Below are positions 8,462 through 35,381 of a stretch of 64,000 bases of DNA, in pieces; positions within the stretch are counted from its first letter, which is position 1, and every line of letters starts with the position of its first letter. The notes beneath the pieces are model-generated. The model was not told the origin of the DNA. It made no database searches and saw nothing but the letters and a program-made list of their open reading frames with translations. The stretch comes from Maridesulfovibrio salexigens DSM 2638 (GTDB lineage: Bacteria; Desulfobacterota; Desulfovibrionia; Desulfovibrionales; Desulfovibrionaceae). Both the position numbers and the translations under genes were made by a program. The stretch lies in the NCBI RefSeq assembly GCF_000023445.1, contig NC_012881.1:4047501-4111500 (forward strand), given 5' to 3'.

Positions 8462-10171
8462 ATGATCAAAAAGATCAAAGGACTCCTGAACCCGGCTCAG
8501 AAAAAAAGTATTTTCGCGCTGGTTGTTCTGTCCATTCTTATATCGGGCATAGAAACCGTTGGTATTTCGGCTATTTTGCCATTTATTTCTGTTGCGAGTG
8601 ATTTTTCACTGGTAACAGGTAATAAATACTACAATTTTGCCTACACTTTTTTTGGGTTCAGCGATGCACAGTCCTTTGTCATCACTTTCGGCCTTGTTTT
8701 GATCGGATTTTACGTATCCAGAGGGTTTCTCAATCTCTGTTACATGTATTTTATTCAGAGATATTCACAAGGAATATTTCTATCCCTTGGAACTAAACTG
8801 TTTTCTAATTATGTGCATATCAAATATCAGGATATGACCACTCGAAACAGCTCAGATCTTTCCAAGAAACTGATCACTGAAACAAACAATGCAGCTCTTT
8901 TCTTTTATTCCTTACTGTTGCTGATTTCTGAACTTTTTGTATCTTCCTTTCTTTATACTGCATTACTGGTGGTCAACTGGAAGGTTACGCTGGCCCTTAC
9001 CGGTTTTCTCGGACTAATGGTCCTGCTGCTGATCAAAATTGTTTCCCGGCTGATCAAAAAAGAAGGGTTGAAACGAAACCAGTTTCAGGAAGTATACTAC
9101 CGCACCATTAGCGAAACCCTGAGCAACCTGAAATTCATTAAGCTCATGGCCGGAGAAAAAACAGCTATCAATGCTCTGCACAAGTCTGGAAAGGGATACG
9201 TTGATGCCATGGTAATGAACAACACCTATAATACAGTTCCCCGACTTTCTCTTGAAAGTATCGGATTCTCCATGCTTATCGCGGCCCTGATTCTGGCTTT
9301 ACAGAGCGGGCAGGCTATTTCATCGATTATCCCGGTCGTATCTCTTTTTGGTTTGGCAATGTACCGTATGCTGCCCTCTGTAAACCGCATCCTGAGCAGC
9401 TACAACAATATGCTTTACTACAATAAGAGTATTGACCTGCTCTATGAAGACTTTCACCTCGAGACTCATAGACTGGGCAATGACCCCATTAAATTCAAGG
9501 ACCAGATTAATATTCGAAACATGAGTTTCGGATATACTGAAGAATTGATCCTCAAAAATATTTCCCTGAACATCACAAAGGGTGAAAAAATAGCCCTTAT
9601 CGGTGAAAGCGGGGCAGGCAAAAGCACCCTCGCAGATATTATCATCGGAATGTACACTTCTTTTTCCGGAAATATCGATGTGGATGAGACCCCATTAACA
9701 GAAAAAAATATGCTCTCATGGCGGGAAAAAATTGGTTATATTCCGCAGTCCATTTATCTTTTTGATTCCACAGTGTCAGAAAACGTTGCTTTCGGGCGCA
9801 AATTTGATGAACAGAAGCTGAAAGAAGCACTCAACAAAGCTGAGCTGACTCCTTTTCTAGAACAGAATCAAGGGATCCATACACCTGTGGGTGAAGATGG
9901 GTCACAGCTTTCCGGAGGTCAAAAGCAGAGAATCGGAATAGCACGGGCCATTTACGGCAACCCTGATCTTCTGGTTCTTGATGAAGCCACATCAGCACTG
10001 GACAGCCAAACCGAACAGCGGATCATGGACAATATTTTTAAAGTCAGCGAAGGCAAGACATTAATTATAATCGCACACCGACTCTCTACTATCGAGCAGT
10101 GCGACAAAGTATATAGAATTGAAGACAAAGGCATCCGCCTTATTGAAGATAAAAACACCCTCAAGGGTTAA
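8462..10171 (+). CDS. ABC-type oligosaccharide flippase, PglK/WlaB-like
   Basis: A half-size ABC exporter (569 residues) with an N-terminal membrane domain (about residues 1-310) and a C-terminal ATPase: Walker A GESGAGKST at 381-389, signature LSGGQKQR from 483, and Walker B LVLDEA at 504-509. Both halves look like PglK of Campylobacter jejuni, the ATP-driven flippase for undecaprenyl-PP-linked heptasaccharide in N-glycosylation; the length is nearly the same (about 564). A role in flipping the glycan built by the surrounding transferases is inferred. No Wzx, Wzy or WaaL is seen nearby, which favours a PglK-type over a Wzy-type route. An AAGGA ribosome site precedes the ATG. Lipid-A exporter MsbA is the alternative, but the cluster context argues against it. 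Confidence 0.85.
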   Translation: MIKKIKGLLNPAQKKSIFALVVLSILISGIETVGISAILPFISVASDFSLVTGNKYYNFAYTFFGFSDAQSFVITFGLVLIGFYVSRGFLNLCYMYFIQRYSQGIFLSLGTKLFSNYVHIKYQDMTTRNSSDLSKKLITETNNAALFFYSLLLLISELFVSSFLYTALLVVNWKVTLALTGFLGLMVLLLIKIVSRLIKKEGLKRNQFQEVYYRTISETLSNLKFIKLMAGEKTAINALHKSGKGYVDAMVMNNTYNTVPRLSLESIGFSMLIAALILALQSGQAISSIIPVVSLFGLAMYRMLPSVNRILSSYNNMLYYNKSIDLLYEDFHLETHRLGNDPIKFKDQINIRNMSFGYTEELILKNISLNITKGEKIALIGESGAGKSTLADIIIGMYTSFSGNIDVDETPLTEKNMLSWREKIGYIPQSIYLFDSTVSENVAFGRKFDEQKLKEALNKAELTPFLEQNQGIHTPVGEDGSQLSGGQKQRIGIARAIYGNPDLLVLDEATSALDSQTEQRIMDNIFKVSEGKTLIIIAHRLSTIEQCDKVYRIEDKGIRLIEDKNTLKG

Positions 10172-11176: not shown

Positions 11177-11185
11177 AGGTTCACT

Positions 11186-12331: not shown

Positions 12332-12335
12332 ACCT

Positions 12336-13034: not shown

Positions 13035-13065
13035 GCATAATCGACAGCAAGCACAAAGACGCAAA

Positions 13066-14133
13066 ATGGAAATGAAAACAGAAGACCTCTTGGGAAAAGA
13101 TAAAACTCTTATCATAAGGGCTGATGCTAATTCCAAAATCGGAATTGGCCATGTTATGCGGTGCCTCGCTCTCGCTCAAGAGTGGATGGACAGAGGGGGA
13201 CGAGCTATTGTTGTCGGAAAAATTGCTAATACTACTTTAGTTAAAAAAATTCGTAATCTTGGACTAGAATATGAGCCAATAGACGTTTCATATCCTGATT
13301 CTGAGAACGATGCACAAATATTACTCCAAGTTGCGAAGTCTGCACCGGCAGGCAGTTGGATTGTATTGGACGGCTATTTTTTAGATACTATATACCAGAA
13401 GCGAATAAGGAAAAATCATCCCAATACTCTGGTTATCGATGATTGCCATCATCTCAAAAAATATGATGCAGCAGTAATTCTGAATCAGAACCTCGGCGCT
13501 GAAACGATAGTTTATAATGTGAATGAGAACGCTATAGTTTTGGCTGGCTCTAAATATGTCCTGTTAAGAAAAGAATTTAGGACAAGCACAGCAAAACACC
13601 CTGTCACGGCAAATGACGGCCACATCAGTGTTTTGGTTAGTATGGGAGGAGCCGACGCTCTTAATGTGTCTTTAACAATTCTCCAAGCCTTACAAGCTTT
13701 AGGCAACAAGATAGAATTAACACTTGTTGTGGGGCCAGCTTACCCGCATAGACATTCTTTAGATCATTTTGCTCAGAATTCGACATTTAATTTTAACATT
13801 AAATCAAATGTTGAAAATATGGCTGAGCTGATAGCTGAAAATGATATCATAATAGGAGCCGGCGGTTCCTCCTGCTGGGAAGTTTGCAGCATTGGCAGAC
13901 CCTTAGTAATAATTACAACCGCTGATAACCAAATTAGGATTTCAGAAAAGCTGGAAGAAGCCGCTGCCGCTGTTTATTTGGGAAGTGCTGAAAAGATTGA
14001 TCACGAAACAATATATCATGCTGTAAAGTTTCTTGTAAAAGATACAGGTAAAAGACAAGAGCTGTCGCGCAAAGCACTTGAAATATTTGACAATAAAGGC
14101 GTCTCAAGAGTTGTGGACATTCTGGTTGAATAA
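13066..14133 (+). CDS. pseG: UDP-2,4-diacetamido-2,4,6-trideoxy-beta-L-altropyranose hydrolase
   Basis: This GT-B-like enzyme removes UDP from the diacetylated sugar to give 2,4-diacetamido-altropyranose, the substrate of PseI. It is recognised by RADANSKIGIGHVMRCLALAQ-type N-terminus (IGIGHVMRC carries the catalytic-type histidine, about residue 28) and by VSMGGAD and IIGAGGSSCWE in the second half. At 355 residues it is longer than the C. jejuni enzyme (about 274) because of an N-terminal extension and divergence, but it does not contain the GNAT domain seen in PseG-PseH fusions. An ATG two codons downstream could also serve. Confidence 0.85.
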   Translation: MEMKTEDLLGKDKTLIIRADANSKIGIGHVMRCLALAQEWMDRGGRAIVVGKIANTTLVKKIRNLGLEYEPIDVSYPDSENDAQILLQVAKSAPAGSWIVLDGYFLDTIYQKRIRKNHPNTLVIDDCHHLKKYDAAVILNQNLGAETIVYNVNENAIVLAGSKYVLLRKEFRTSTAKHPVTANDGHISVLVSMGGADALNVSLTILQALQALGNKIELTLVVGPAYPHRHSLDHFAQNSTFNFNIKSNVENMAELIAENDIIIGAGGSSCWEVCSIGRPLVIITTADNQIRISEKLEEAAAAVYLGSAEKIDHETIYHAVKFLVKDTGKRQELSRKALEIFDNKGVSRVVDILVE

Positions 14134-14274
14134 ATTATTTGACCCTACTTATATTTTGTTCTCAACTGAGAACTAGTAACTACTCCGACATTTTGGATTT
14201 AAGCAAATTAAGGATGTTATCAGCTGATATCTAAATAAAATTTATCTTCGCTAACTATAAAAAAAGAGAAAAAC

Positions 14275-15345
14275 ATGCCTTACAATAAAAATGTTTATGT
14301 GGAAATTAATGGACAAATGATTGGCCCTGGAAAACGCCCCTTTATTGTGGCGGAGATGTCAGGAAATCATAACGGAGATATCCAAAGAGCGTTTCGAATA
14401 ATTGATGCCGCAAAGCAAGCCGGGGCAGATGCCGTTAAAATTCAAACCTATCGTCCAGATACTATCACGATAAACCATGACAGCCCTGATTTCATGATAA
14501 ACGAAGGGCTTTGGGCTGGATACCGATTGTACGATCTCTATGAGAAAGCACATACGCCTTGGGAGTGGCATAAGCCTCTTTTTGAATATGCCCAAAAAAT
14601 TGGTATAACTCTGTTTTCCGCTCCTTTTGATCACACTGCAGTTGATCTCCTTGAGCAATTAAATACCCCTGCATATAAAATTGCCTCTCCAGAATTGATC
14701 GACTTGCCACTCATTCAAAAAGTTGCCCGAACAGGCAAACCAATCGTGATGTCGACTGGTATGGCGACGCTGGAAGAGATTGAAGAAGCAGTAGAAGCCG
14801 CTCGGAGTGCCGGGGCACAAGACATCATATTACTCCATTGCACTGCAGCCTACCCAACTCCACCGGAAGAAGCTAACCTATCCACAATCAAAGAACTTTC
14901 TGACCGTTTCGGTGTAATGGCAGGCTTATCTGATCATTCGATGGGGACTACAATACCTATTTTAGCTGCAGGACTTGGTGCAGTAATAATTGAGAAACAC
15001 TTCACTCTTTCTCGCAAAGAGGGAGGAGTAGACAGTGCCTTTTCCTTGGAAACTGAAGAATTGACTCAACTGACTGCGGCAGTAAAAGAAGCTCATACAG
15101 CATTAGGTTCTCCCGCTTTTTCTCCTACTAATTCCGAAATGTTGGTGCTTAAGAACCGACGTTCATTGTATGTTGTAAAACCAGTCGTAAAAGGCGAAGC
15201 TCTCACAGAAATGAATATTCGGTCAATTCGACCAGGCAACGGTCTTAAACCCAAATTCTACAACAAGATTATCGGAAAAAAGGCAACTCGTGATCTCAAT
15301 TTCGGAGAACCTCTTGACGCAACTATGATTGAAGGTGGGATTTAG
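14275..15345 (+). CDS. pseI: Pseudaminic acid synthase
   Basis: It condenses the free 2,4-diacetamido-altrose with phosphoenolpyruvate to form pseudaminic acid. The 356-residue protein is a NeuB-family enzyme: N-terminal TIM barrel with IVAEMSGNHNGD, ADAVKIQTY and GLSDHSMG, followed by the SAF/antifreeze domain at the C-terminus (NRRSLYVVK...IRSIRPGNGLKP). A 141-bp A+T-rich gap separates it from pseG; this is where pseH is often found in related clusters, but no reading frame is present there. PseI rather than NeuB/LegI is preferred because of the linked PseB, C, F and G. Confidence 0.9.
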   Translation: MPYNKNVYVEINGQMIGPGKRPFIVAEMSGNHNGDIQRAFRIIDAAKQAGADAVKIQTYRPDTITINHDSPDFMINEGLWAGYRLYDLYEKAHTPWEWHKPLFEYAQKIGITLFSAPFDHTAVDLLEQLNTPAYKIASPELIDLPLIQKVARTGKPIVMSTGMATLEEIEEAVEAARSAGAQDIILLHCTAAYPTPPEEANLSTIKELSDRFGVMAGLSDHSMGTTIPILAAGLGAVIIEKHFTLSRKEGGVDSAFSLETEELTQLTAAVKEAHTALGSPAFSPTNSEMLVLKNRRSLYVVKPVVKGEALTEMNIRSIRPGNGLKPKFYNKIIGKKATRDLNFGEPLDATMIEGGI

Positions 15346-22415: not shown

Positions 22416-23423
22416 CTAACTGTTATCAATTTTCTTGCACCCGCAATTGTAATTACAATCGACAATTTTGAGAGCAAGATTAAGTGCTTCAAGTCCATCT
22501 TCACCTGTTACGAGCGGGGAAGAATTATCCCTGCAGCATTCCAGAAAAGATTCAATCTCGACACGAAGGGGTTCGCGCTTTTCTACACGAAAACGTGTGA
22601 AATCACCTTCTGCTACTCCGAATTTAGCTTTGAACCAATCACTCTGGTTTTCATTCTGCTCGGCAGCATAGTTGGAGTTGAAGGTAAGATTCTGGTTAAG
22701 GTAATCAACGGTAAACATACCGTTTTCACCGGTCACAGAAATTTCCCTTATCTTAGTCGGAGTTACCCAGTTTACGTCCAAGATACCGAGAATTTGGTTT
22801 TCAAAACGTAGAAGACCAAAAACGATATCTTCGTTATCAGTATTCATGACTTTGGATATTTCAGCAGTCATGGAGTGCACTTCAGACTGTGCAATATAAC
22901 GCATCATATCGAGTTCATGTGTTGCAAGGTCACTTGCTACACCAACATCAGTAATTCGTCCGGGATACGGAGACTGACGTCTGGAATGAATGGTAAAAAT
23001 ACGTCCTAACTGACCATCAGCAAGTCTTTCCTTCAGCTGTGTTACGGCAGGGTTAAAACGTTCAATATGTCCGACTTTAAGTACCCGATTCACTTCTTTA
23101 GCTTTCGCGATCATTTCGCGCGCTTGATCAACAGTCTTCGCAATAGGCTTTTCAACCATCACGTGAATGCCTGCATCGAGGCAATCCATAGTAGCCTGAT
23201 GATGATAAGAGGTGGGTAAAGCGATGGTTACTGCATCAGGCTTTTCTTTATCAAGCATCTCACGGTAATCAGTATAGGCACGACCACCGTAAAGGGCGCA
23301 AAGCCTGTCAGTCTGCGCAGTGTTATGGTCAACTACTCCGACAAGCTCCGAACCGGCAATATCTGAATATAGACGCACATGGTGCTGGCCCATAGCGCCT
23401 GTTCCAATAACTGCTGTTTTCAT
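22416..23423 (-). CDS. Gfo/Idh/MocA-family sugar-nucleotide oxidoreductase, WbpB-like
   Basis: An NAD-dependent dehydrogenase of 335 residues. The Rossmann motif is VIGTGAMGQHH at residues 5-15, the catalytic-type motif is VEKPIAKT, and GHIERFNPAV follows. WbpB/WlbA enzymes oxidise C3 of UDP-GlcNAc-uronate, giving the substrate of WbpE-type aminotransferases such as the one encoded at 4.0-5.2 kb, so the two may work together. The ATG at 23423 is chosen because GGAAAGG precedes it; an ATG five codons upstream lacks a ribosome site. No WbpA or WbpD is in the window, so the complete pathway cannot be shown. Confidence 0.75.
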   Translation of the reverse strand: MKTAVIGTGAMGQHHVRLYSDIAGSELVGVVDHNTAQTDRLCALYGGRAYTDYREMLDKEKPDAVTIALPTSYHHQATMDCLDAGIHVMVEKPIAKTVDQAREMIAKAKEVNRVLKVGHIERFNPAVTQLKERLADGQLGRIFTIHSRRQSPYPGRITDVGVASDLATHELDMMRYIAQSEVHSMTAEISKVMNTDNEDIVFGLLRFENQILGILDVNWVTPTKIREISVTGENGMFTVDYLNQNLTFNSNYAAEQNENQSDWFKAKFGVAEGDFTRFRVEKREPLRVEIESFLECCRDNSSPLVTGEDGLEALNLALKIVDCNYNCGCKKIDNS

Positions 23424-23614
23424 TTTTTTCCTTTCCATTATTTTTATTTAAAGAGGCCGGAATTTGTAGCATAGAATCTTCCGGCAGCTAAATTTCGCGC
23501 TCTAATGAGTCACTTTTTAGTTAACTTGAAGAGCAATGGCAATACAAGTTCAGCTCATTTGTAAAAAACAAATCTATACACAATCACATCTCACTTAAAT
23601 TAATCAGAATATTC

Positions 23615-25648
23615 CTAATTAACTTCTAAGGGATTCCCAAAAGCATCAAGCCAAGCTTTCCCAAGGGCGACCGCACCATCATAATTCAAATGATTGCTAT
23701 CTGCATACAGAGGAACCCCATCAAGAACAGGGTTAAACTGACCATTCTTAGTCAGTCTTTTTAGTAGGTCTTTTGGATCAATTACAATTACACTAGGGTA
23801 CTCAAGCTTAATCTTGTCTATGACTGAATCCTCAAAGCTATGCCGCTTCTCAATATCATTCCAATTAGCAGAAGTATGCAGGTCTGAATTAAAAAGAATA
23901 TTTTTCACATAATTTTGTGAAAGAGGCTCGCGGACATAGGGAATATCTTTAAAAAGAACAGGGGTAACACCATTTTTAACAAGAAATTTTATAGCATCAT
24001 ATAAGCCCAATTCGAAACTAACCTTGTTATCTGAAATGATATCAGAACTTGGCTCTACATTTTCATGCAACATTCGTTCAGGCTTATTCGCGTTTGAATA
24101 AATTCTAGAAGAATAAAACGCCGCAATGAAGACGTACTTCACTTTTCCCTGCGTTACCAATTTACGCCAATATTCATTCATTTCCCGCTTGTCAGCACGT
24201 AATTCCAAATTACCTTGAACATCGCGGTCATAAAAATCTACATTTAATAAAAACGGGGTGCTATCACGAGCAACCTGTAATCCCTTTATTGCATAGGGAG
24301 CACAAATCAACTCTACAAACGGACGTATGGCAGTCGAATGAGAATCACCCAGCAATAAAGCCTGAACGGGGCCGGAGGAATCCATATTCCACATGCTGTT
24401 AGCATTTTCAATATGAGAGTCTGTTGGGGACCCTTTACCAAGCTGGGCCCCCAGATATGGCCTTTCAATACTGCTGACAGCATGTATCGCCTTTCTTTCA
24501 TCCTCTGTGTAACGAGTCATGTAACCATCATCATTGTAAGCACCGTATAAATATATACCGCTTAGACAAATAGGGAGTAAAACGAATGAGCAAAAGGCTG
24601 CCTTGAAGGATATATTTGCTTTTCTGAACGGCTTTTCGATTAGCTTATAAGACAATACAGATAATCCAAGACTCAAACATAAGGCCGGAATTCTGTACTT
24701 AACTACTGAGTGACCAGTATATGCGAGCAACGAAAATACAGGCCAATGCCAAAGATACAAAGAGTAAGAAATCTTTCCCATCCCGCGGAATATAGATGTC
24801 GAAAAAAGATTGGCTATCGGCGAAGCAGACCAACGAAATGGTAGCAGCAGTAAAAATGTACCTAAGCAGGGAATAAAAGCATCCAACCCGGGATATGGGA
24901 GGCCTTCTTTGTAAAAAAAACTTGCATATAAAATTAATGAAAGCCCGGTTATATGGACAAAATTTACAGTCTTTTTCTCAATTATAGGATCTAAAGCGAT
25001 AGGCTTTCGAAACAAAAGCGCTCCCATAGCTCCGAGAAACATCTCAAAAAAACGAGCCGGAATCATGTAGAAGGCAAACTCAGGAAACTTGACTAAGTAC
25101 TGGGAAAGCAGAAGGAGAAGGATAAAAACACTGAAAAGAATTCTAGCATGAAATTTCTTGGGAATAAAACGATAGGCTAACAGAAGAAAGGCAGGCCACA
25201 GGTAGTAAAACTGTTCTTCTACAGAAAGTGACCAAGTATGTGTTAACGGAAACTCTTTAGAATATCCTCTCCAATATCCGCCGAAATATCTCCACAGAAA
25301 GAAATTCGAACACGAGGCAAGAGTAGCAAACTGCGCCTTTGCATAACTAAGCAAAAGGCCCGGCAGAAGTAATTTGTGCGCAACATATGTTGTACCTCCA
25401 AGCACTACTAATAAAGCCGGTAGAAGTCTTCTAATTCTGCGCAGATAAAATATCTTAAAACTGAAAACACCTTGATCAATCTCGTTAACCATAATTGATG
25501 TAATCAAATAGCCCGAGATAACGAAAAAAACATCAACCCCGACAAAACCTCCTTCAAAAAGGGGAAATTGCGCATGCGAGAAAACTACAAGCAGAACAGC
25601 AACAGCGCGCAGCCCATCTATATCTTTTCTATAGGGAATAACACTCAT
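23615..25648 (-). CDS. Acyltransferase 3 / SGNH fusion O-acetyltransferase (OafA-like)
   Basis: An integral membrane O-acetyltransferase of 677 residues that acetylates an extracytoplasmic glycan such as LPS. The N-terminal Acyl_transf_3 domain (about residues 8-350, roughly ten membrane helices) starts with DIDGLRAVAVLLVVFSHAQ, in which the histidine is catalytic, and contains VFFVISGYLIT and HTWSLSVEEQFYYLWP. The C-terminal SGNH domain has ALLLGDSHST (nucleophile Ser) and YADSNHLNYDG (Asp/His). This two-domain layout matches OafA of enteric bacteria. It lies between the WbpB-like gene and the glycoprotein locus, with its own likely promoter. Confidence 0.9.
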   Translation of the reverse strand: MSVIPYRKDIDGLRAVAVLLVVFSHAQFPLFEGGFVGVDVFFVISGYLITSIMVNEIDQGVFSFKIFYLRRIRRLLPALLVVLGGTTYVAHKLLLPGLLLSYAKAQFATLASCSNFFLWRYFGGYWRGYSKEFPLTHTWSLSVEEQFYYLWPAFLLLAYRFIPKKFHARILFSVFILLLLLSQYLVKFPEFAFYMIPARFFEMFLGAMGALLFRKPIALDPIIEKKTVNFVHITGLSLILYASFFYKEGLPYPGLDAFIPCLGTFLLLLPFRWSASPIANLFSTSIFRGMGKISYSLYLWHWPVFSLLAYTGHSVVKYRIPALCLSLGLSVLSYKLIEKPFRKANISFKAAFCSFVLLPICLSGIYLYGAYNDDGYMTRYTEDERKAIHAVSSIERPYLGAQLGKGSPTDSHIENANSMWNMDSSGPVQALLLGDSHSTAIRPFVELICAPYAIKGLQVARDSTPFLLNVDFYDRDVQGNLELRADKREMNEYWRKLVTQGKVKYVFIAAFYSSRIYSNANKPERMLHENVEPSSDIISDNKVSFELGLYDAIKFLVKNGVTPVLFKDIPYVREPLSQNYVKNILFNSDLHTSANWNDIEKRHSFEDSVIDKIKLEYPSVIVIDPKDLLKRLTKNGQFNPVLDGVPLYADSNHLNYDGAVALGKAWLDAFGNPLEVN

Positions 25649-25756: not shown

Positions 25757-27859
25757 TTACTTAAAGCGGCTACGTACGATAGCAACCATGGGAGCAAGCA
25801 TCAGGAGCAGCCATTCCAGACCGAAACCAGCTGCGGGGTTGAATACACAACCGGAGGAGCTGGAGGAGGAACCTGCGATACCGAGAACAACCGGGTCAAC
25901 AATACCACCATCGATGGTATTGTTGGTGTCGTATGAGCCATTATCTTTAACGACCCAGTTTACGACTACTTCATCAGTTGCATCAAGAACAGAGTTAGGT
26001 CCGAGGTAACCGCTACCGTCAGCTCTGGAAATCCACCATGCACCATCGGTGGTGGTAGCTTCGTTTTCAGCGTAGGTAAGGAGATGAGCAGAAGAGCCAT
26101 CGATCATTACCTTGTAGAGAGCGAGGTCGGAAACTCTACCAGCAACACCAGTCATTACGAACTTAGCGGTATAGTAGAAGTCTTTACCGGGACCCATTTT
26201 ACCGGAGCTAGTCAGAGTGTAACCCTTAACATCGGTCAAAGGTACGAAATCAGATGCGATACCGGTCCAGTTAGCAAGAAGTTCAGTCTTGGTGTAACCT
26301 GTGCTGTTTCTGCTGTAGTTAGTACCGGAAGTAGTGGTCATGGATGCGTTAGTCTGATAGTTCGCAGCAGCACCGGTAATCACAGTGGTGGTAGCTGCAG
26401 TCGGAATCAGGAAAGCAAGAGAACGGTATGCAATGCTTGTGTCACGGAAGTCTTTGTTTACATAACTTTCGTAGATACCTACAGAGAAGACATCGTCAGA
26501 AGATCTTTTACCGTAGAAGTGACCGATAACGTTACCGTTGACATCTTTAAAGGTAGCATTGGTCTGGGCAATTTTAAACTGAGAAGTAGAAGTTACGTCA
26601 ACAGTGTACTGATCAAGATCAGTTTCATCTCTGTCAATGTTCTGCAGAGAACCGATAGCACTATCAACAAACCAGTCGTGAGCAGAACCAGTCAGCTCCA
26701 TGTTACCATCAACACGGAACTGCATGAGACCAGCAGTTGCGTTACCTTTTTCCTGACCAGCTCTACCGGAACCAGTAGTAACTGCAGTGAAACCTTTGTT
26801 CATGAGGTAAGAGTTAGAAAGGTCGGAACCATTCTTAACCATTACAGCAAAAAGCTGTTTACCAGCAGTTCTTACGAAACCGGTAACCATGTTTTTGTCA
26901 ACGTTGATGGTGGAGTTCTCGAAAAGGGTAATGTAGTCGGTATCATCTCTTTCAAGAGCAACGTTACCACCAGCAGCTGCCTTGTAGGTAGTTGCGTTAT
27001 AATAAGCCCAGTCAGACTTGTCTACAGTGTCAGTGCTGTTAACCAGAAAGTATCTAGCCTGAGCGTTACCGGTAGTGGAAGTAGAATCGTAAGCAGAGTT
27101 AATCTGAACCTGACCGAAAACAACAACGGGGTCATTCTTCACAACACCGTATGCGTAGTAATCCCAAGTAGCACCGTCAGCGATATCTTTAAAAGTACCG
27201 TTCTGGTAAAGCATGCTCATGGAGATACCGGAACCTTCCTGAGATTCCTCTTTGGTATCAGCACCAACATCAGCAGTGCCGGTCATGTTGGAAGTAGCAT
27301 TTGTAATACCTACCATCAACTGGTATCCTGCAGCAGGAACAAAGTAAGTTGTAGCGTTCAGAGTTCCGTTACCTCTACCAAGAGTAACAAGACCGCCAAT
27401 CTGGTTGGTGGAACCGGCTGTAACATCATAAGTCAGGTAATTACCGATGTTTTCGCCGGCTCTGGTGTTATCGTATGCAGTATCGGCAAGACTTCTGGTT
27501 ACTGTTTCAGCAGCAGCTGTGCCGTTTGTGTATACAATGGTACCGTTAAGGTAACCACCATAAGTTGCACCAAGAGTTGCGTTGATCAAAAAAAGGTCGC
27601 TTTTGGATGCGGCTGTCACAATTTCAGAGCGGAACATGTTCATTCTACCCTGAGTTTTAGAGGTAGCAGCAGCAACTGTACCGGATGCGTTCACGCCAAA
27701 ACCTGTAAGGAATAACTGAGTAGCATTTGCTGTATCAGTCCCGGCAGCGTAACCTGCAATAGTCCCGTTGTAGTACGCAGGATATTCAGCGGTCAGTGCG
27801 AATGCACTGGAAGCGCAAAACACGAGCAGTACTGTAAAAATACCGATAAGTTTTTTCAT
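25757..27859 (-). CDS. Secreted multi-sequon protein with C-terminal sorting signal (Synerg-CTERM-like), predicted N-glycoprotein
   Basis: A 700-residue exported protein of unknown fold. A signal peptide (MKKLIGIFTVLLVFCASSAFA) is followed by about 640 residues rich in Thr, Ser, Ala, Gly and Asn. I count 23 N-X-S/T sequons (mostly NGT, NAT, NAS, NST) among 47 asparagines, spread along the chain. The C-terminus is a six-Ser run, Gly, Cys-671, an AAGFG turn, a hydrophobic helix and the basic tail RSRFK, like Synerg-CTERM sorting signals. The ATG at 27859 has GGAGAG upstream. The gene directly follows the oligosaccharyltransferase gene and ends in a strong terminator. Inference: an abundant surface glycoprotein, cell-surface anchored through the Cys region. 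No enzymatic motif is seen. Confidence 0.75.
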   Translation of the reverse strand: MKKLIGIFTVLLVFCASSAFALTAEYPAYYNGTIAGYAAGTDTANATQLFLTGFGVNASGTVAAATSKTQGRMNMFRSEIVTAASKSDLFLINATLGATYGGYLNGTIVYTNGTAAAETVTRSLADTAYDNTRAGENIGNYLTYDVTAGSTNQIGGLVTLGRGNGTLNATTYFVPAAGYQLMVGITNATSNMTGTADVGADTKEESQEGSGISMSMLYQNGTFKDIADGATWDYYAYGVVKNDPVVVFGQVQINSAYDSTSTTGNAQARYFLVNSTDTVDKSDWAYYNATTYKAAAGGNVALERDDTDYITLFENSTINVDKNMVTGFVRTAGKQLFAVMVKNGSDLSNSYLMNKGFTAVTTGSGRAGQEKGNATAGLMQFRVDGNMELTGSAHDWFVDSAIGSLQNIDRDETDLDQYTVDVTSTSQFKIAQTNATFKDVNGNVIGHFYGKRSSDDVFSVGIYESYVNKDFRDTSIAYRSLAFLIPTAATTTVITGAAANYQTNASMTTTSGTNYSRNSTGYTKTELLANWTGIASDFVPLTDVKGYTLTSSGKMGPGKDFYYTAKFVMTGVAGRVSDLALYKVMIDGSSAHLLTYAENEATTTDGAWWISRADGSGYLGPNSVLDATDEVVVNWVVKDNGSYDTNNTIDGGIVDPVVLGIAGSSSSSSGCVFNPAAGFGLEWLLLMLAPMVAIVRSRFK

Positions 27860-27881
27860 AATGAAAAACTCTCCATTTTTA

Positions 27882-27899
27882 TTTGCGAACACCCGCAAA
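27882..27899 (-). promoter_or_regulatory. 5'-leader hairpin of the CTERM glycoprotein mRNA
   Basis: TTTGCG (27882-27887) and CGCAAA (27894-27899) form a short stem just upstream of the ribosome site of the 25757-27859 gene. Leader stems of this kind can stabilise mRNA of abundant surface proteins. The remaining 120 bp upstream to the oligosaccharyltransferase gene shows no convincing promoter boxes. Confidence 0.3.
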
Positions 27900-27979
27900 C
27901 CCTATGTTTACGGCATGTAGCGCAATTTCATAGTAAAGCATTACAAGAAATCACTTAAAAAAACAACCCTAAACATCTA

Positions 27980-30097
27980 TCAAAGTACTTCATATATTCT
28001 GATCATCGGAAATCCTTCATAAACCAGCTTAAATCGGCCATTAATCTCAGGGGCGGCAGGATCCATCAATAGTAGTCGAAATAAAAGACTGTTTTTAGCC
28101 AGATCATCTACAAGATATCCATAATTAAGATAGCTATTGTAAACGAGAAAAGGTCCTGCAGACTGGGGATAAATATTACTTTCCCCTACCCCTAGTGAAG
28201 CTACGGCATATCCGGAAAGAGGAAGAGCATTGCCATCATCAAATGTTACCCTCCCTACCTCTCTATCCAGATTAAATCCTGATCTGACCGCAGAAATATT
28301 CGGATGCACTCCTTGTCCATTCAACAAATTGCAAGATCCATAGTACAATATCCAGTACGCCAGTCTTACATCAGCCCAACTGGCTATTATATATTGTTTA
28401 GGTGTATCCTTGAATTCATAATTCTTAAAACCAAAACTACGAACAAGATTCACTACATCTTTAACATCCATTTTGTTCCAAGCGGTAGCTGGAACTCCAT
28501 TATGCGATGCAGAGTATTTAATAAACTGATTAGCCTGCATAAATGAAGGCGTAGTGTAAGCAAAAGCCAAAGGAAACAGAGTAGTTCCACCATGATTACT
28601 ACCATCGGCAAATGATTTTTTGCCAGTATAGTACATAGTTACGTACCCCCAATCCCACCAGGTCCAAAAAGTACTCTCCGCAGGAGAAATTGTGGACATC
28701 GCCTTCAAAGCTCTTGCATGCTCCTGATAAATAATCGGAGTAGGCATGGCCCTTTTATACTGTGGAAAAACGTTTAACATTAACAGAGCTATTAAAAAAA
28801 TTGGTGCTATAGCTGCGCAAACCCTCTGCTTCTTACCTAACGTTAAAAAACTAACCATGAGCCAATATAAAAAGTAGCTCCCTCCAAGACCAAGCACTAC
28901 CCCACCAAACATGGCAAAACGACCGCCTAACTTGACCGCAGCTGCGGTCATTAAGGCAAAAGGCAATAACAATAAAACATAGGGACGCTTAGCCAAAAGA
29001 AATAAAAATCCCAGAAGCCCAAAGCAGGATAAATACATACTGCCGGTCAAATCGCCTAGCAACGCTACCAATTTGACATTTTGGACCTCGATAACACTCT
29101 GACCAATGCTTGGATAATGAATTTGGGCTGCACTCTTTACGACGACATCTGACACAGGTTTGAGGTATGACTGAATTTTACTCCACAAGAATATAAACTT
29201 AACCCCTGCATCACTAAAAATCAGCACCAGAAAAATGACTAAGAGATAAAGATAGATACTTCCTAAAAACCTATGGCATTTAAACTCTTTTTTCTCAGAA
29301 AAAATAATCAAAAAAACCGACAGCAGTATTCCTACCCAGCCCAACATTGCTGCCAAGCTAAAAGCTGTTATGCCCTTCAATAAAGTAGCCTTGCTCTCTT
29401 TATATCCACAAAGAAGAACAAGAAATATTGAAGCAAAGAGGGCGAAGAGCCCAAACAAAAAGACATCCCCGTGCCACAGTCGCCCGTAGCTGACACAGCC
29501 CCCCGCAACAATTGGAATGATGTATTCGGAAATGGAAGGCTGGAATGAGTCTGTTTTGGTAGTACTGGGGAGCCAGCTATTTCTAATCCCTCTACTGACC
29601 CAGTAAGCCAACAGAACAGAGATCAACAACGGAAATAAGAGAGTTACCAGATCCGTGTCATAATAGCTCAAGCGTGTTCGGAAATAAAACAGTGGAATTG
29701 AAGTGGCAAACACACCGGCACATAGTCCTATCCACGGCCCGGCAACAAGCATCCCCCAAGAAAAAGCGGCTATTGCTGTAAATCCAGCAAACACAGCAGG
29801 AAGCCAGAAAGCAATATTTCCATACGGCGCTCCAGTAAGCTCCCCTATTGTTTTAACGAGGCCTGCCATGGGGTTGCTTACCGCTCTACCGACTCCCTTT
29901 GCACCTGCCAGCCATGCATATGCATCATGGGTTCCCAAAATGTATTCGCCATCAATCATAAATGCGGGATTATCCCATTTAGGCAAGTCAACACATCTCA
30001 ACGCAAAAGCAAAAAGAAAGGACATCAATGCGAATAAGACATAAGCCTTCCAGCCGGAAAAACAGTCTGCCTTAGAGGATTCAGCGTGAGTATTCAT
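27980..30097 (-). CDS. STT3/PglB-type oligosaccharyltransferase
   Basis: Transfers a preassembled oligosaccharide from a polyprenyl carrier to asparagine of N-X-S/T sequons in the periplasm. The 705-residue membrane protein has the three diagnostic elements of bacterial and archaeal STT3: Asp-58 in the first external loop (GTHDAYAW, equivalent to PglB D56), Y145-Y146-D147-T148-D149 (metal site and catalytic loop), and WWDWG at residues 480-484 at the start of the periplasmic domain. About 12 hydrophobic segments precede that domain. The ATG at 30097 has AGGTG upstream and lies 40 bp after gspE. No acidic residue requirement can be predicted, but the neighbouring acceptor's sequons lack D/E at -2, suggesting relaxed specificity. 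Confidence 0.93.
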   Translation of the reverse strand: MNTHAESSKADCFSGWKAYVLFALMSFLFAFALRCVDLPKWDNPAFMIDGEYILGTHDAYAWLAGAKGVGRAVSNPMAGLVKTIGELTGAPYGNIAFWLPAVFAGFTAIAAFSWGMLVAGPWIGLCAGVFATSIPLFYFRTRLSYYDTDLVTLLFPLLISVLLAYWVSRGIRNSWLPSTTKTDSFQPSISEYIIPIVAGGCVSYGRLWHGDVFLFGLFALFASIFLVLLCGYKESKATLLKGITAFSLAAMLGWVGILLSVFLIIFSEKKEFKCHRFLGSIYLYLLVIFLVLIFSDAGVKFIFLWSKIQSYLKPVSDVVVKSAAQIHYPSIGQSVIEVQNVKLVALLGDLTGSMYLSCFGLLGFLFLLAKRPYVLLLLPFALMTAAAVKLGGRFAMFGGVVLGLGGSYFLYWLMVSFLTLGKKQRVCAAIAPIFLIALLMLNVFPQYKRAMPTPIIYQEHARALKAMSTISPAESTFWTWWDWGYVTMYYTGKKSFADGSNHGGTTLFPLAFAYTTPSFMQANQFIKYSASHNGVPATAWNKMDVKDVVNLVRSFGFKNYEFKDTPKQYIIASWADVRLAYWILYYGSCNLLNGQGVHPNISAVRSGFNLDREVGRVTFDDGNALPLSGYAVASLGVGESNIYPQSAGPFLVYNSYLNYGYLVDDLAKNSLLFRLLLMDPAAPEINGRFKLVYEGFPMIRIYEVL

Positions 30098-30137: not shown

Positions 30138-31619
30138 TTAAAGCTTAGTAACTCGAACAACTTCTTCAAGAGTGGTAACACCTTCACGAACAAGACGAAT
30201 ACCATGATCGACCATAGTTTCACGGCCCATTTCTTTAGCGTAAGCCTTGATCTGGTCTGAAGAAGCAACTTCCATAATCAGCCCGCGCATATCCTCTGTA
30301 ACCGGGATAAGCTCGTAAACACCGCGACGCCCGCTGAAGCCAGTGAAGTTACAATGCTCGCATCCGGCACCGGCTGTCTGAGTGGAAGGAAGACCAGCTG
30401 TCTCCTCAAAAAGCTTATAGGTATTCTCGGACACTTCTACTTTTCTGGAACAATGTTTACAATTAACGCGAACCAAACGCTGACCAAGCACAAGAGAAAG
30501 AGAAGATGCCAACAGAAAGGGCTCAATTCCCATATCGAGCATTCTGGTGACTGCAGTGGCTGCATCGTTAGTATGCAAGGTGGACAAAACAAGGTGACCG
30601 GTAAGTGAAGCCTGAACCGCAGTGCTTGCAGTTTCCTGATCTCGAATCTCACCTACAAGGATAATGTCCGGGTCCTGTCTAAGGAAGGAACGAATGGTAG
30701 TCGCAAAGGTCATGCCTGCAGCCTTATTGACCTGAACCTGATTGACCCCGGAAAGTTGGTATTCAACGGGATCTTCTACGGTAACAATATTCTTGTCATC
30801 ACGTGGAAGCTCACTTAGACCGGCATATAAACTGGTAGTTTTACCAGAACCAGTCGGCCCGGTAACAAGCACGATACCGTGGGGCTGGGCAAGAACTTTT
30901 CTGAACAACTCAAGATCTGGGCCTTTGAGGCCAAGGTCTTCAAGGTTAAGAATATTTTTAGAGCGATCCAGTACACGAAGGACAGCCTTTTCCCCACTCA
31001 TGGTAGGAATTGTGGAAACACGGACATCAACTTCCTTCTGTCCGAGTTTGAGAAAAATACGTCCATCCTGCGGCTTGCGGCTCTCGGCCACATCCATCTC
31101 ACCCATAACCTTAATACGGGCAATAACAGTAGGTTGAAGCCCCTTATCTAAGCGTTTTACAGCTTTAAGCACTCCATCTTGACGATAACGGACAACAAAA
31201 CCATTGCCCTGACCCTCGAAATGGATATCACTGGCACCAGTGGAAATGGCCTGATGCAAAGTCTTGTTAACTAGTCGGACGATGGGAGCATCGTCATGAG
31301 ACCAGCCTAACAAATCCTGCCCATCTTCGCCTTCGGAGTCATCGGAATCAGACTCAATAGCACTCTCTTCTTCCCAGACAGTAAGAGCCTGTTCAAGTAG
31401 CGGAAAGAACTCTTCCTCGGATACAATTTCAGAAACAACATTTTTTCCCAGCTTCCATGACAAAAAGTCTGCCATAGGCAAAGAAGCCTCGTTCTGAAGG
31501 AGCACTTTGATTTGTTTATCCCTGACTTCAACGGGTATAAACTCATTACGCTGAGGAAAGGTCAAAAAAAGGTCCACTACTTCTCGTGGGACTAAATTGA
31601 GATCATATATATTACTCAA
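30138..31619 (-). CDS. gspE: Type II secretion system ATPase GspE
   Basis: A 493-residue secretion ATPase that powers the pseudopilus of the type II system at the inner membrane. An N-terminal GspE_N domain (about 1-110) precedes the ATPase core: Walker A GPTGSGKT at residues 254-261, Asp box and VEDPVEYQL, Walker B ILVGEIRD, His box STLHTNDA, then a zinc tetracysteine module (CKHC ... CEHC) typical of GspE. It follows gspD by 9 bases. No gspC, F, G-M genes are in the window; in this group they may lie elsewhere. PilB is a possible alternative but the linked secretin and zinc motif favour GspE. Confidence 0.9.
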   Translation of the reverse strand: MSNIYDLNLVPREVVDLFLTFPQRNEFIPVEVRDKQIKVLLQNEASLPMADFLSWKLGKNVVSEIVSEEEFFPLLEQALTVWEEESAIESDSDDSEGEDGQDLLGWSHDDAPIVRLVNKTLHQAISTGASDIHFEGQGNGFVVRYRQDGVLKAVKRLDKGLQPTVIARIKVMGEMDVAESRKPQDGRIFLKLGQKEVDVRVSTIPTMSGEKAVLRVLDRSKNILNLEDLGLKGPDLELFRKVLAQPHGIVLVTGPTGSGKTTSLYAGLSELPRDDKNIVTVEDPVEYQLSGVNQVQVNKAAGMTFATTIRSFLRQDPDIILVGEIRDQETASTAVQASLTGHLVLSTLHTNDAATAVTRMLDMGIEPFLLASSLSLVLGQRLVRVNCKHCSRKVEVSENTYKLFEETAGLPSTQTAGAGCEHCNFTGFSGRRGVYELIPVTEDMRGLIMEVASSDQIKAYAKEMGRETMVDHGIRLVREGVTTLEEVVRVTKL

Positions 31620-31628
31620 CTTTACGCT

Positions 31629-33644
31629 CTATAAACCATCTGAGATAGAAGGTGTTTTATCATCGGATTTTTTAGAATCGCTACCAAGAGTGCTAAACTC
31701 TTCATCAATGAAATTACTAATTCGATTACGCTGATTTCTGTATTTATCCATTTTGGCTTTACTCAAGGCTTCAAGACCTTCAGTGGTCTGTATAATGCGT
31801 GCGGAAAGAAAAACCATCAGTGTATTCTTATTTCCGCTGTTACTAGTAGTCTTGAAAAGCCAACCCAATAAAGGCAAATCAGAAAGATAGGGAACTCCTG
31901 CCTCAGTACGGGTATGGTCAGCTCTGATCAATCCACCGATAACCATGGTCGAACCATCAGCCAAGAGTACTGTAGTGTCGGTCTTACGGTCATTTGTAAT
32001 CGGCAACTCTGTAGTACTGGCCTCAGAGACAGTATTATAAGTCTGATAGACTTTCAGCTTAACCAACCCATCTTCACGATTGATTCTCGGAGTGATCTTA
32101 AGCTTGATACCAACATCCTTATATTCGTAAGTTGAAACAACCGCATCACCGCTGGTCGAACTTTGCCCTGTTTTGTATGGTCTATTCTGACCGACGAAAA
32201 TTTCGGCTTCAGCGTTATCCAGAGTCATGATCTGAGGAGCAGATATAAGATTAAAATCAGTGGCAGACTTGGTAAAGTTCACCAAAGCTCCAATAGTGGG
32301 AAAGCTTCTACCTGCATAAGAGATGGTATCGCCCAAAACCCCCATGGAATACCCACCAGGAACATTCGAAGGGTTAGACGCGTAAGCGGAAAGATTACTA
32401 TCCTTTGCTTTAGTATATCCCAAAGTAGCGACACTCCCCCCAAGATCAATTCCGCCCTGCCATTCAACCCCGAATTCCTTAGCATGATCTAAAGTCGTCT
32501 CAAGAACAAGAGCTTCAATATAAACTTGGTCTTGTGCCTGGTCCAGTTGCTCTACAAAGTTATCAATTTGGGAAAGTTGATCCGTTGGAGCCATAACAAT
32601 AAGAGTATTTGTTGCTTCATCTGCGGAGACCTGAACTCCTCCGGAATCGTTGGAAGAGGCCGAGCTTGTGTCCCTGCTGGAAGAACTTTTCGCGGCAGAA
32701 TCACCTGCTACTGAATTCTTTGAATTTCCCTCCGAAGGAATTCCTCCACCAGAAATAAGACTTTTCAATACCTCACCAGCAACAACGGCTTCAATATTAT
32801 GAAGCCTATATATTTTCATCTTGGAATAGGATTCACTGGTCCGATCAAGTTTTCCTATAAGGCTTTTGATCGTATCTATCTGGTCGCTAGAACCAGAAAC
32901 AAGAAGACTATTGGCCCAATCAAGAGATTCAATTACAGGTGGAGCACCTGTTTTTCCAGAAGTAAAAAGTTTCTTATAAAAAGAGGTCAATTTTGTAGCC
33001 ACAGTCTTGGAATTGCTCTTTTCAAGCTCAATAAGTGTATGTTCCTGCTGCGCCCCTGCTCTTTTCAAGATACCCAGTAGTTTTTTCATCTTATTAACAT
33101 TATCTTGCAAATCCATAACCATAACCGCATCGGCCATTGGGACAGAAGTTACCGTTCCTATACGAGACTTTACCTGAGTCAGGACAGCCTGAACTTTTGC
33201 CGGGTCCATCTTGCCTGCAAGCTGAAAAACTGAAGTAATTATCTCTTCACCATTCCCTTTCGATGGAGCAGCCTTAATTTCTGGTGAGATTGTTTTGGCA
33301 TCTCTGATGGGCAAAACATAAGTGACATTGTCTCTGGTCACGGCATGAAAACCAGACCCACTCAACACCTGCTGAAATACGGCCATAAGCTCTGGCTCGG
33401 TAAGAGACTGACCTGCGTAAATGCTTACAAAAGTCCTTGGTAATGATTCTTTATTGAAAACTATATTGCGCCCTGTATAACGCCCTACAAATTTCACAAA
33501 CTCATCCAAAGCGATACTTTCAAGGTTGGCGTGAACACCATCACCACCTTCAGGCTGAGCCGCGGCAGCGGAAACCATGAGAAACATGGATAAGAACAGG
33601 ACCACAAAAAACTTACAAAATTTATTCAGCATATTCAGCGCCAT
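31629..33644 (-). CDS. gspD: Type II secretion system secretin GspD
   Basis: The outer-membrane channel subunit, 671 residues with a signal peptide ending near AAAAQPEG (about residue 30). It has N0 and N-domains (VFNKESLPRTFVSIYAGQSL; repeated KH-like segments such as IYRLHNIEAVVAGEVL), a Ser-rich insert in N3, and the C-terminal secretin core with VGQNRPYKTG, VGIKLKITPRIN and VPYLSDLPLLGWLF. The ATG at 33644 follows CGGAG by five bases. It is the promoter-proximal gene of the string gspD-gspE-oligosaccharyltransferase-CTERM protein. Confidence 0.92.
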   Translation of the reverse strand: MALNMLNKFCKFFVVLFLSMFLMVSAAAAQPEGGDGVHANLESIALDEFVKFVGRYTGRNIVFNKESLPRTFVSIYAGQSLTEPELMAVFQQVLSGSGFHAVTRDNVTYVLPIRDAKTISPEIKAAPSKGNGEEIITSVFQLAGKMDPAKVQAVLTQVKSRIGTVTSVPMADAVMVMDLQDNVNKMKKLLGILKRAGAQQEHTLIELEKSNSKTVATKLTSFYKKLFTSGKTGAPPVIESLDWANSLLVSGSSDQIDTIKSLIGKLDRTSESYSKMKIYRLHNIEAVVAGEVLKSLISGGGIPSEGNSKNSVAGDSAAKSSSSRDTSSASSNDSGGVQVSADEATNTLIVMAPTDQLSQIDNFVEQLDQAQDQVYIEALVLETTLDHAKEFGVEWQGGIDLGGSVATLGYTKAKDSNLSAYASNPSNVPGGYSMGVLGDTISYAGRSFPTIGALVNFTKSATDFNLISAPQIMTLDNAEAEIFVGQNRPYKTGQSSTSGDAVVSTYEYKDVGIKLKITPRINREDGLVKLKVYQTYNTVSEASTTELPITNDRKTDTTVLLADGSTMVIGGLIRADHTRTEAGVPYLSDLPLLGWLFKTTSNSGNKNTLMVFLSARIIQTTEGLEALSKAKMDKYRNQRNRISNFIDEEFSTLGSDSKKSDDKTPSISDGL

Positions 33645-34349: not shown

Positions 34350-35381
34350 TTACACTCTATCTAAAACCCTTAAAAGAACATCTTCAGGCAGAACTTTCGT
34401 CAGGCAGGCCAAATCACCCCGATCACACTTCTCTTTGCCGCAAGGCTCACACTCAATACCAGCAACAACCTCTTCGTGTTCAGGTGAAGGAAAAATCCAA
34501 CTTCCAGAAGAACCGGGCATAACTATACTTTGTGTACCGACAGCAACAGCAAAATGCCTCGGAGCAGAACAATTACCTATATGCAAAACCGCCCGCTCAA
34601 TTAAGGCAGCCATGAGTCTCAAAGACCCCGGTTTGTCAACCATGACACACTTATCGGCCACCCCGGACTCTTCCATTACCTTAATGGCAACATCTTTTTC
34701 GCCAGGGCCATAAAGCAGAAAAAACTTAAAATTTGGACGTTGCTCCGCGATTAGTCGGATTAACTTTCCGTAATACTCTTCAGGCCATTTACGGGTATGC
34801 CTTCTGTGGGATGCATCAATTGTAATCAACGGTTCATCATCAGCTACACCAAGCATATCAAGACAGTCTTTTGCCTCAGCACGCTCTTCATCTGAAGTAT
34901 AAATTTTTGGACGCTCTGAATTCCACTCAATACCAAGCGGTTTGAGCACTCCGGCTTTGTACATAGCTGCGTAGCCCCCCGGAATATATTCAGGCCAATT
35001 GGTATACAGCCAACGGTTATACCATGGCGGCATATCGGCGAGTTTAACCGGGGCGTCACTGAACAACACAACCCACCGGCAACGGGGAAGCTGCTGAAAA
35101 TCTACAATAAGGTCATATCCGGATCGACCAACTCTCCAATAAAAGGCCAAGGCCTTCAACGGATTACGAAGCTTCTTTTTATCAATAGCCCAGACATGGC
35201 TGACTGCCGGATTATTATCAAATACTTGAGTGCACTTGCCCTCTGTCAGGACATGAATTTCAGCATCAGGATATTTTTTTTGGAGAAGGGAAACAGATGG
35301 GGTAGCCAACACAACATCGCCAATCTGGCGCAACTGACAGACAAGTATTTTCTTAGGATTAATTGATGATATATCTTTCAC
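34350..35381 (-). CDS. Glycosyltransferase family 9 (LPS heptosyltransferase-like)
   Basis: A GT-B enzyme of 343 residues that adds a heptose or related sugar to a lipopolysaccharide core (family function). Characteristic segments are KILVCQLRQIGDVVLATPS at the N-terminus, DLIVDFQQLPR, TIDASHRRHTRKWP for donor binding, and HIGNCSAPRHFAVAVGTQSI with the usual GNxSAPxH acceptor-side motif. A C-terminal Cys cluster (CEPCGKEKCDRGDLACL) is common in GT9 proteins. It ends 80 bp before the CPBP protease gene and might be its co-transcribed neighbour. Confidence 0.88.
   Translation of the reverse strand: MKDISSINPKKILVCQLRQIGDVVLATPSVSLLQKKYPDAEIHVLTEGKCTQVFDNNPAVSHVWAIDKKKLRNPLKALAFYWRVGRSGYDLIVDFQQLPRCRWVVLFSDAPVKLADMPPWYNRWLYTNWPEYIPGGYAAMYKAGVLKPLGIEWNSERPKIYTSDEERAEAKDCLDMLGVADDEPLITIDASHRRHTRKWPEEYYGKLIRLIAEQRPNFKFFLLYGPGEKDVAIKVMEESGVADKCVMVDKPGSLRLMAALIERAVLHIGNCSAPRHFAVAVGTQSIVMPGSSGSWIFPSPEHEEVVAGIECEPCGKEKCDRGDLACLTKVLPEDVLLRVLDRV

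Follow-up and report, generated by a model that had tools for sequence, protein, structure and literature searches.

An oligosaccharyltransferase gene joined to mrtJ, type II secretion-type genes and a sequon-dense exported protein in Maridesulfovibrio salexigens and its relatives

The stretch of DNA analysed here (the window) comprises 64,000 nucleotides of Maridesulfovibrio salexigens DSM 2638 (G000:C1:4047501-4111500 of the 4,289,847-bp single-contig genome); its minus strand carries, in the order of transcription, a GT9 heptosyltransferase-like gene, mrtJ, gspD, a gspE-like gene, the gene of an STT3/PglB-type oligosaccharyltransferase (OST) and, after a gap of 120 bp, the gene of an exported protein rich in N-glycosylation sequons (N-X-S/T, X not Pro) that is termed the acceptor in the following (Table 1). 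The locus is characterized by this gene set in conserved order, by the C-terminal tail of the acceptor, and by an excess of sequons that are themselves conserved. It is probably dedicated to the production of a single surface protein with heavy N-glycosylation, with glycosylation, cleavage and location predicted from sequence. The case for the acceptor is based on its linkage to the OST gene, on the comparison with relatives that share its C-terminal tail, and on the conservation of the sites.

Sequon excess and sequon conservation in the acceptor

The acceptor contains 47 Asn residues, 23 of which are part of a sequon (18 NxT and 5 NxS); a first-pass annotation of the window had arrived at exactly this count of 23 in 47 by hand, gave the coordinates, the gene order and the 120-bp gap correctly, and estimated Ser plus Thr at about a fifth of the residues (20% counted) and the chance level at about 10 sequons. 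In 20,000 shuffles of the mature protein the mean was 9.3 sequons (sd 2.7, maximum 20), and none of them reached 23. Sequons in 398 open reading frames (ORFs) of the same genome matched the composition (621 seen versus 630 expected), and the acceptor was their top outlier (z 5.2, next 3.2); this sample covered ORFs of at least 100 aa from 454 kb, i.e. from the window and 20 further stretches, three of which were not evenly spaced (two chosen for tail-bearing relatives, one for a second, weak STT3 hit). The 79 exported-like ORFs among them, selected by a crude hydrophobicity rule and including the acceptor, held 164 sequons versus 161 expected. A chance product of the composition was thus ruled out by the shuffles and the ORF sample; an origin by repeats was likewise rejected, as the sequons occur along the whole chain (4, 6, 3, 3, 1, 4 and 2 per successive 100 residues) and visual inspection, which was not supplemented by a repeat finder, showed no repeat array. 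None of the seven family members checked showed a Pfam family, and no sequence relative of the acceptor was present in the PDB up to E 1; the relatives that could be named are located on assemblies of "Desulfovibrio sp." and of Desulfovibrionales metagenomes.

The OST was detected in all 17 genomes of the genus, with the acceptor gene directly downstream in 15 (the exceptions are termed G105 and G117), and the order mrtJ-gspD-gspE-OST-acceptor is kept in 15 as well (the window and 14 others); the GT9 gene preceded mrtJ in each of eight further genus loci inspected. The acceptor orthologs share 39-65% identity with the window protein in the regions that match. Fourteen of the acceptors (including that of the window) are intact and possess 16-26 sequons each (z 2.2 to 5.7), together 307 versus 148 expected (2.07-fold), with a shuffle p of at most 0.006 in 13 of them and of 0.025 in the weakest (G150). 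The acceptor of G093 is split into two reading frames within an otherwise intact gene run (L067:10756-12863), either genuinely or by sequencing error; its pieces (2 and 18 sequons) were excluded from the 14. In contrast, 29 proteins of the genus with a similar C-terminal tail (tagged relatives) held 210 sequons versus 236 expected (mean z -0.28, maximum 2.0). This control was restricted to the genus and started from 35 loci, 27 of which yielded the 29 proteins through the tail filter and eight none; the OST-linked protein of G117 is included. The genome comparisons proposed in the first-pass annotation were thereby answered in favor of its core claim of a sequon-rich acceptor paired with its enzyme: sequons exceed composition in all 14 linked intact orthologs and not in the pooled tagged relatives, the gene pair persists across most of the genus, and sequon Asn are matched about twice as often between orthologs as other Asn.

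The excess is specific in spacing and residue. In the 14 acceptors, Asn with Ser or Thr at +2 occurred at 2.05 times expectation, while positions +1 and +3 to +8 gave ratios of 0.83-1.05; Ser or Thr five residues before Asn reached 1.38. The ratios of D-X-S/T and Q-X-S/T were 1.14 and 0.79, respectively, and NxT was enriched (3.02) versus NxS (0.92). The middle residue was Ala in 34%, Gly in 25% and Ser in 18% of the sequons. In pairwise comparisons (the summed conservation values count sequence pairs, not independent events) Asn was matched in 66% of cases inside sequons versus 31% outside, a difference (0.354) greater than in any of 2000 relabelled sets (maximum 0.114); Ser/Thr at the +2 position was matched in 74% versus 47% elsewhere, and middle Ala, Gly or Ser in 47% versus a background of 42%. 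A sequon is present in 13 or all 14 of the proteins at nine alignment columns (window residues 57, 112, 187, 220, 288, 373, 434, 504 and 518). Where at least seven acceptors have a sequon, which applies to 19 columns, its loss involved both Asn and Ser/Thr in 44 cases, Asn alone in 15, a gap in one and Ser/Thr alone in none.

Table 1. Features of the acceptor locus and of other glycan-related genes in the window (positions of the window; scores in bits).
Feature	Position	Strand	Basis
Hyper-sequon exported acceptor, 700 aa, starts MKKLIG	25757..27859	-	Sequon count versus shuffles
Predicted Sec signal peptide, about 21 residues	27797..27859	-	Read by eye from residues 1-21; putative cleavage site
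Sequon-bearing ectodomain, residues 31-648	25916..27769	-	Sequon positions
C-terminal sorting-type tail, residues 664-700 (Ser run, GC, NPAA, hydrophobic helix, Arg/Lys end)	25760..25870	-	Nearly invariant in orthologs
120-bp intergenic leader (conserved TTG block, TA block, invariant GGAGA ribosome site)	27860..27979	-	15-genome alignment
Hairpin in acceptor leader	27893..27913	-	Kept double changes over 15 sequences
STT3/PglB-type oligosaccharyltransferase, 705 aa	27980..30097	-	PF02516 and PF21436 above cut-off; motifs; alignment to PglB-type PDB chains
GspE/PilB-type secretion ATPase	30138..31619	-	PF00437 461; NCBIfam GspE best, below cut-off
Type II secretin GspD	31629..33644	-	TIGR02517 426.9 (cut-off 351)
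MrtJ-type glutamic intramembrane protease, 154 aa	33804..34268	-	NF033192 81.2 (cut-off 75); motifs
GT9 heptosyltransferase-like gene, upstream of mrtJ	34350..35381	-	PF01075
Acyltransferase-3 with SGNH domain, downstream of acceptor	23615..25648	-	PF01757 and PF19040
UDP-GlcNAc 3-dehydrogenase-like oxidoreductase	22416..23438	-	NF040723 330, below cut-off 450
PglK-like ABC exporter, possible lipid-linked glycan flippase	8462..10171	+	NF050066 591.9, below cut-off 1000

Oligosaccharyltransferase, sorting tail and secretion genes

Enzymes of the STT3/PglB type share catalytic Asp, an SVIE-type Glu and a WWDWG motif; as stated in the first-pass annotation, the active-site motifs are indeed present in the window OST (HDAY 57, DTD 147, SVIE 334, WWDWG 480). 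The protein exceeds the Pfam gathering scores for STT3 (33.5 versus 24.5) and for the STT3/PglB core (52.2 versus 23 bits) and lies below the cut-off of the Campylobacter-type PglB equivalog NF050801 (77.8 versus 1300 bits); a second STT3 match in the genome is weak. In the alignment with PglB chains of the PDB, which we take to be those of C. lari PglB, the position of R331 (the proposed binder of the acidic residue at -2 of the sequon) is occupied by D349 in the window OST and by Asp, Asn or Gln in the nine genus OSTs aligned. An acid at -2 is present in 10 of the 307 acceptor sequons. According to the parts of PMC4894442 consulted, three Desulfovibrio PglBs glycosylate the minimal N-X-T, that of D. 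gigas although it retains the Arg, and D. gigas HmcA carries an N-glycan at TANGT; the acceptor sequons would fit this N-X-T specificity.

The C-terminus of the acceptor (SSSSSSGCVFNPAAGFGLEWLLLMLAPMVAIVRSRFK) is nearly invariant in the orthologs and fits the tripartite JDVT-CTERM layout of Cys signature, transmembrane helix and basic end. The 154-aa gene before gspD encodes a CPBP protease (Rce1-like) with a score above the MrtJ cut-off (Table 1); its EEFFFR and HFAYN agree with EExxxR and HxxxN, the catalytic motifs given for MrtX in the parts of PMC11980579 consulted. The same source proposes MrtJ as the partner of JDVT-CTERM tails and describes cleavage by the related myxosortase of MYXO-CTERM tails, which consist of an invariant Cys, a helix and an Arg-rich end, resulting in surface anchoring dependent on the type II secretion system (T2SS). 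Within a family sample of 149 genomes, compared by hand, an mrtJ above cut-off was located at most 10 kb from a clear OST (E<1e-30) in 10 of the 13 genomes holding both; the genes are unlinked in G117 and on different contigs in G027 and G073. Across the wider phylum mrtJ is rare, with a match at E 1e-15 in 9 of 297 genomes.

According to the proposed mechanism, the acceptor would cross the inner membrane by Sec and be held there by its C-terminal helix, while the OST would transfer lipid-linked glycans to many N-X-T sites (mostly N-A-T, N-G-T and N-S-T) with no need for an acid at -2. The CPBP protease MrtJ would then process the GC-NP tail in the region of its invariant Cys or directly at this residue which, if myxosortase serves as a model, would have been lipidated beforehand. 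A T2SS that includes the secretin and the GspE-like ATPase of the same cluster would carry the glycoprotein in folded form across the outer membrane and leave it anchored there. The first-pass annotation had assigned the protein to the surface without having recognized the MrtJ/GspD/GspE context, which now supports such a predicted location.

Codon usage and the leader bear on the claim of the same annotation that the protein is the main, abundant acceptor. Computed over Ile and five two-fold NNY sets, C-ending codons account for a fraction of 0.64 in the acceptor gene (rank 47 of 351), while gspE, gspD, mrtJ, the OST and the acyltransferase-3 gene range from 0.20 to 0.32; in six of seven ortholog loci the acceptor again has the highest value. 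The leader hairpin shows at least one kept double change in seven of its eight pairs, each pair being broken or gapped in 2-5 of the 15 sequences; seen in many of the 15 relatives, it is possibly a transcript-stability or regulatory element. A consensus promoter scan did not find a minus-strand promoter. Together, codon bias and conserved leader suggest that the acceptor is expressed separately from and more strongly than its neighbors; this hints at abundance and is no proof of it.

Other substrates and alternative explanations

Several observations weigh against the assignment of the locus to a single, T2SS-exported glycoprotein. The acceptor tail did not match JDVT-CTERM (NF033191) up to E 0.1, and three of ten proteins scanned, all three tagged relatives, matched it at 17.1, 18.5 and 21.8 bits, below the cut-off of 27. 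The ATPase has GspE as its best match at a score below the cut-off (567.1 versus 630 bits; PilB 527 versus 676), the matches to GspC, F, G and K are located about 50 kb from the cluster (G000:C1:4016-4025 kb; GspG with 177 bits above its cut-off of 88.85, GspC with 126, GspF with 297 and GspK with 62 bits all below), and the genome contains two further T2SSF-type loci; for these reasons a T2SS role of the cluster is one that we infer. In G117 the gene after the OST encodes a tagged protein of 1226 aa whose sequons are at the chance level (L069:10544-14224; 13 versus 12.7), with mrtJ-gspD-gspE about 310 kb away, and G105 has the OST and mrtJ without the acceptor; the OST therefore has other work. 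Among 140 genomes of the family outside the genus, 74 gave an OST match (E 0.001), five any acceptor match and three a long one, so that the OST-acceptor pair is mainly a trait of the genus. The OST of G024 and the aligned copy of G023, both from other genera, have Arg at the R331 position, and the G024 acceptor has an acid at -2 in only one of its 25 sequons. The loss of the R331 equivalent as an explanation for relaxed sites was consequently discarded: it fits the genus, but G024, G023 and D. gigas PglB keep the Arg.

The three long acceptor homologs of other genera are tagged and sequon-rich: that of G023 (684 aa, 28 versus 12.6 expected) is separated by about 7 kb from an OST gene preceded by gspD, gspE and a GspF-like gene, that of G065 (716 aa, 20 versus 9.2) is likewise about 7 kb from its OST, and that of G024 (666 aa, 25 versus 10.0) is on another contig than the OST; those of G023 and G065 are overlapped by antisense ORFs and were hidden in the first gene calling. 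A scan of OST neighborhoods (about 10 kb on each side where the contig allowed) for ORFs of at least 250 aa with at least eight sequons and z of at least 3, thresholds that miss the G156 acceptor (z 2.7), found no such protein near the OSTs of G015, G027, G028, G122 and G024 or near the second OST of G023, and only an RTX-like ORF in G044. A 37-sequon protein of G027 was set aside as acceptor candidate, since its RTX-like GGxGND repeat yields N-D-S/T; the G044 ORF begins likewise and was set aside as well. In G023, an untagged secreted protein of 1042 aa (L128:10927-14055, +) that is unrelated to the acceptor contains 39 sequons versus 17 expected at a distance of about 4 kb from the OST; its N-terminal part presumably resembles a C10-type peptidase with a changed Cys position. 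Other tagged proteins, including propeller-like ones, are rich in sequons in G024 (15 versus 4.8) and G027 (14 versus 5.4), and the tagged proteins outside the genus are mixed overall, some being at chance; in one propeller-like tagged protein (L135:4893-8114, +) the repeats have N-G-T in place of the D-G-T that is usual for them. Judged by these several rich proteins, the sequon load of other genera is, where present, spread over more proteins.

A 1228-aa envelope protein overlaps the end of the window (62960-64000, continuing as L155:2460-6146, -); it is termed AsmA-like here, a label of our own beside a weak TIGR03545 match. The protein is sequon-rich in all 17 genus members (two partly covered), with 14 versus 5.4 expected in the window genome, 30 versus 9.5 in G105, which has no acceptor, and 12 versus 8.3 in the weakest case (G156); within the genus, N-X-S/T is enriched 2.24-fold, NxT 3.49-fold and D-X-S/T 1.39-fold. 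Homologs in other OST-bearing genera held 49 sequons versus 23.2 expected (seven proteins from six genomes), and those in five genomes with no detected OST were enriched too (33 versus 17.7), several of the homolog sequences being cut by stretch ends. The AsmA-like protein was dropped as proof of a second glycoprotein on account of the latter, which also implies that a sequon excess by itself is weak evidence and no proof of glycosylation. Either the five genomes carry a divergent OST, or part of the AsmA-like excess is structural.

Enrichment in genomes with no detected OST is what would be expected if the N-X-T excess of the acceptor stemmed from motifs located in turns or at strand edges, in an exported protein rich in beta structure, and had no relation to glycosylation, and the repeat-like positions of N-G-T in the propeller-like protein of G024 point in the same direction. 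We nevertheless regard this structural explanation as improbable: the tagged relatives lack an excess, the commonest middle residue is Ala and not Gly, and Asp at the place of Asn is hardly enriched in the acceptors (1.14, compared to 1.39 in the AsmA-like family and 1.24 in the tagged relatives). Furthermore, Asn and the +2 Ser/Thr are conserved well above background and the middle residue is near it (0.47 versus 0.42), and no loss of a sequon kept the Asn without its Ser/Thr.

Equally hard to favor is a general N-glycosylation system with many substrates, in which the acceptor would be merely the richest one and no dedicated partner of the OST. Its proponents could point to the OSTs retained in G117 and G105 without a linked acceptor, to the majority of OST-bearing family genomes that gave no acceptor, to the rich tagged proteins of G024 and G027 and the 1042-aa protein of G023, and to the glycosylated HmcA of D. 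gigas (PMC4894442, in the parts consulted); on the other hand, the sampled exported-like ORFs of the M. salexigens genome have no overall excess, and 15 of 17 genomes keep the acceptor gene in its fixed place beside that of the OST. Both readings are compatible, with one main acceptor and minor ones. In consequence, the dedicated acceptor postulated by the first-pass annotation gains from the pairing with the OST and from the sequon excess of the orthologs, while the OSTs without acceptor and the rich tagged proteins elsewhere speak against its exclusivity.

It is very improbable that the acceptor is N-glycosylated while mrtJ-gspD-gspE serve other tagged proteins, the acceptor itself staying in the inner membrane or leaving by another route. 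Several tagged proteins per genome would require MrtJ and the T2SS anyway, and in G117 mrtJ-gspD-gspE stand apart from the OST; the tail of the acceptor is, however, nearly invariant, and 15 of 17 genomes have its gene within this run. The acceptor is most likely to be regarded as a dedicated multi-site N-glycoprotein that would be anchored at the surface via MrtJ and T2SS, each biochemical step being predicted from sequence comparison.

Neighboring genes, known systems and significance

The acyltransferase-3/SGNH gene adjoins the acceptor gene in some relatives only. Elsewhere in the window (10184-15345), PseB, PseC, PseF and PseI above their cut-offs constitute a pseudaminic acid pathway next to the PglK-like exporter; its product could serve flagellin, O-antigen or an N-glycan.

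The S-layer glycoprotein of haloarchaea, which belongs with AglB and archaeosortase A, is likewise a surface protein; it has dense N-glycosylation and a sorting tail at its C-terminus. This system differs from the window locus in being archaeal, in the absence of an outer membrane and T2SS, and in its unrelated sorting protease, and the window locus scored 28.8 against the TIGR04154 cut-off of 450. That the outer membrane is coated by an MrtJ-anchored, T2SS-exported hyper-N-glycosylated protein as a Gram-negative counterpart of this glycoprotein, with OST, protease and secretin having evolved as a unit and the OST having this protein as its main task, is a tentative and rather doubtful extension of the above reading.

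The substrates of the C. jejuni OST are many and of low sequon density. The Campylobacter pgl system and the Desulfovibrio PglBs resemble the window locus in their single-subunit STT3/PglB-type OST, and the Desulfovibrio enzymes tested accept the minimal N-X-T without an acid at -2, as the window sequons would need; unlike in the window, a sequon-dense acceptor beside the OST is not described in the consulted parts of PMC4894442. The Haemophilus HMW1/HMW1C system is alike in that the gene cluster of one exported adhesin includes the transferase for the N-glycosylation of several of its Asn residues, with export by two-partner secretion; HMW1C, however, is cytoplasmic and transfers hexoses without a lipid donor, whereas the window locus combines a membrane OST with T2SS-type genes and a sorting protease (PMC2877744, in part). 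Closest with respect to sorting are myxosortase/MYXO-CTERM and MrtJ/JDVT-CTERM, which share the CPBP protease, the Cys-helix-Arg tail, an MrtJ that adjoins its target and, as proposed for the acceptor, T2SS-dependent anchoring; according to the consulted parts of PMC11980579, mrtJ and one further gene make up a pair in beta- and gammaproteobacteria, whereas the window MrtJ is joined to an OST and gspD/gspE, and a search of that text for "glycosyl" gave 0 matches.

No description of this gene unit was found among the titles and abstract beginnings listed in searches of the open-access literature, and a blastn comparison with a plasmid collection gave no match. To our knowledge, the reason for the presence of bacterial STT3-type OSTs is understood in few lineages only; the conserved combination in which an OST is accompanied by a sorting protease, a secretin and a single sequon-dense substrate provides a concrete and testable physiological purpose for such an enzyme. 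In a Gram-negative bacterium, it would tie N-glycosylation both to type II secretion and to surface sorting via the C-terminus. Acceptor and OST may in addition offer a natural many-site N-X-T substrate with its matching enzyme for glycoengineering. For Desulfovibrio-like bacteria, the gene unit suggests a purpose-built route by which a sugar-coated protein would be placed on the cell surface.

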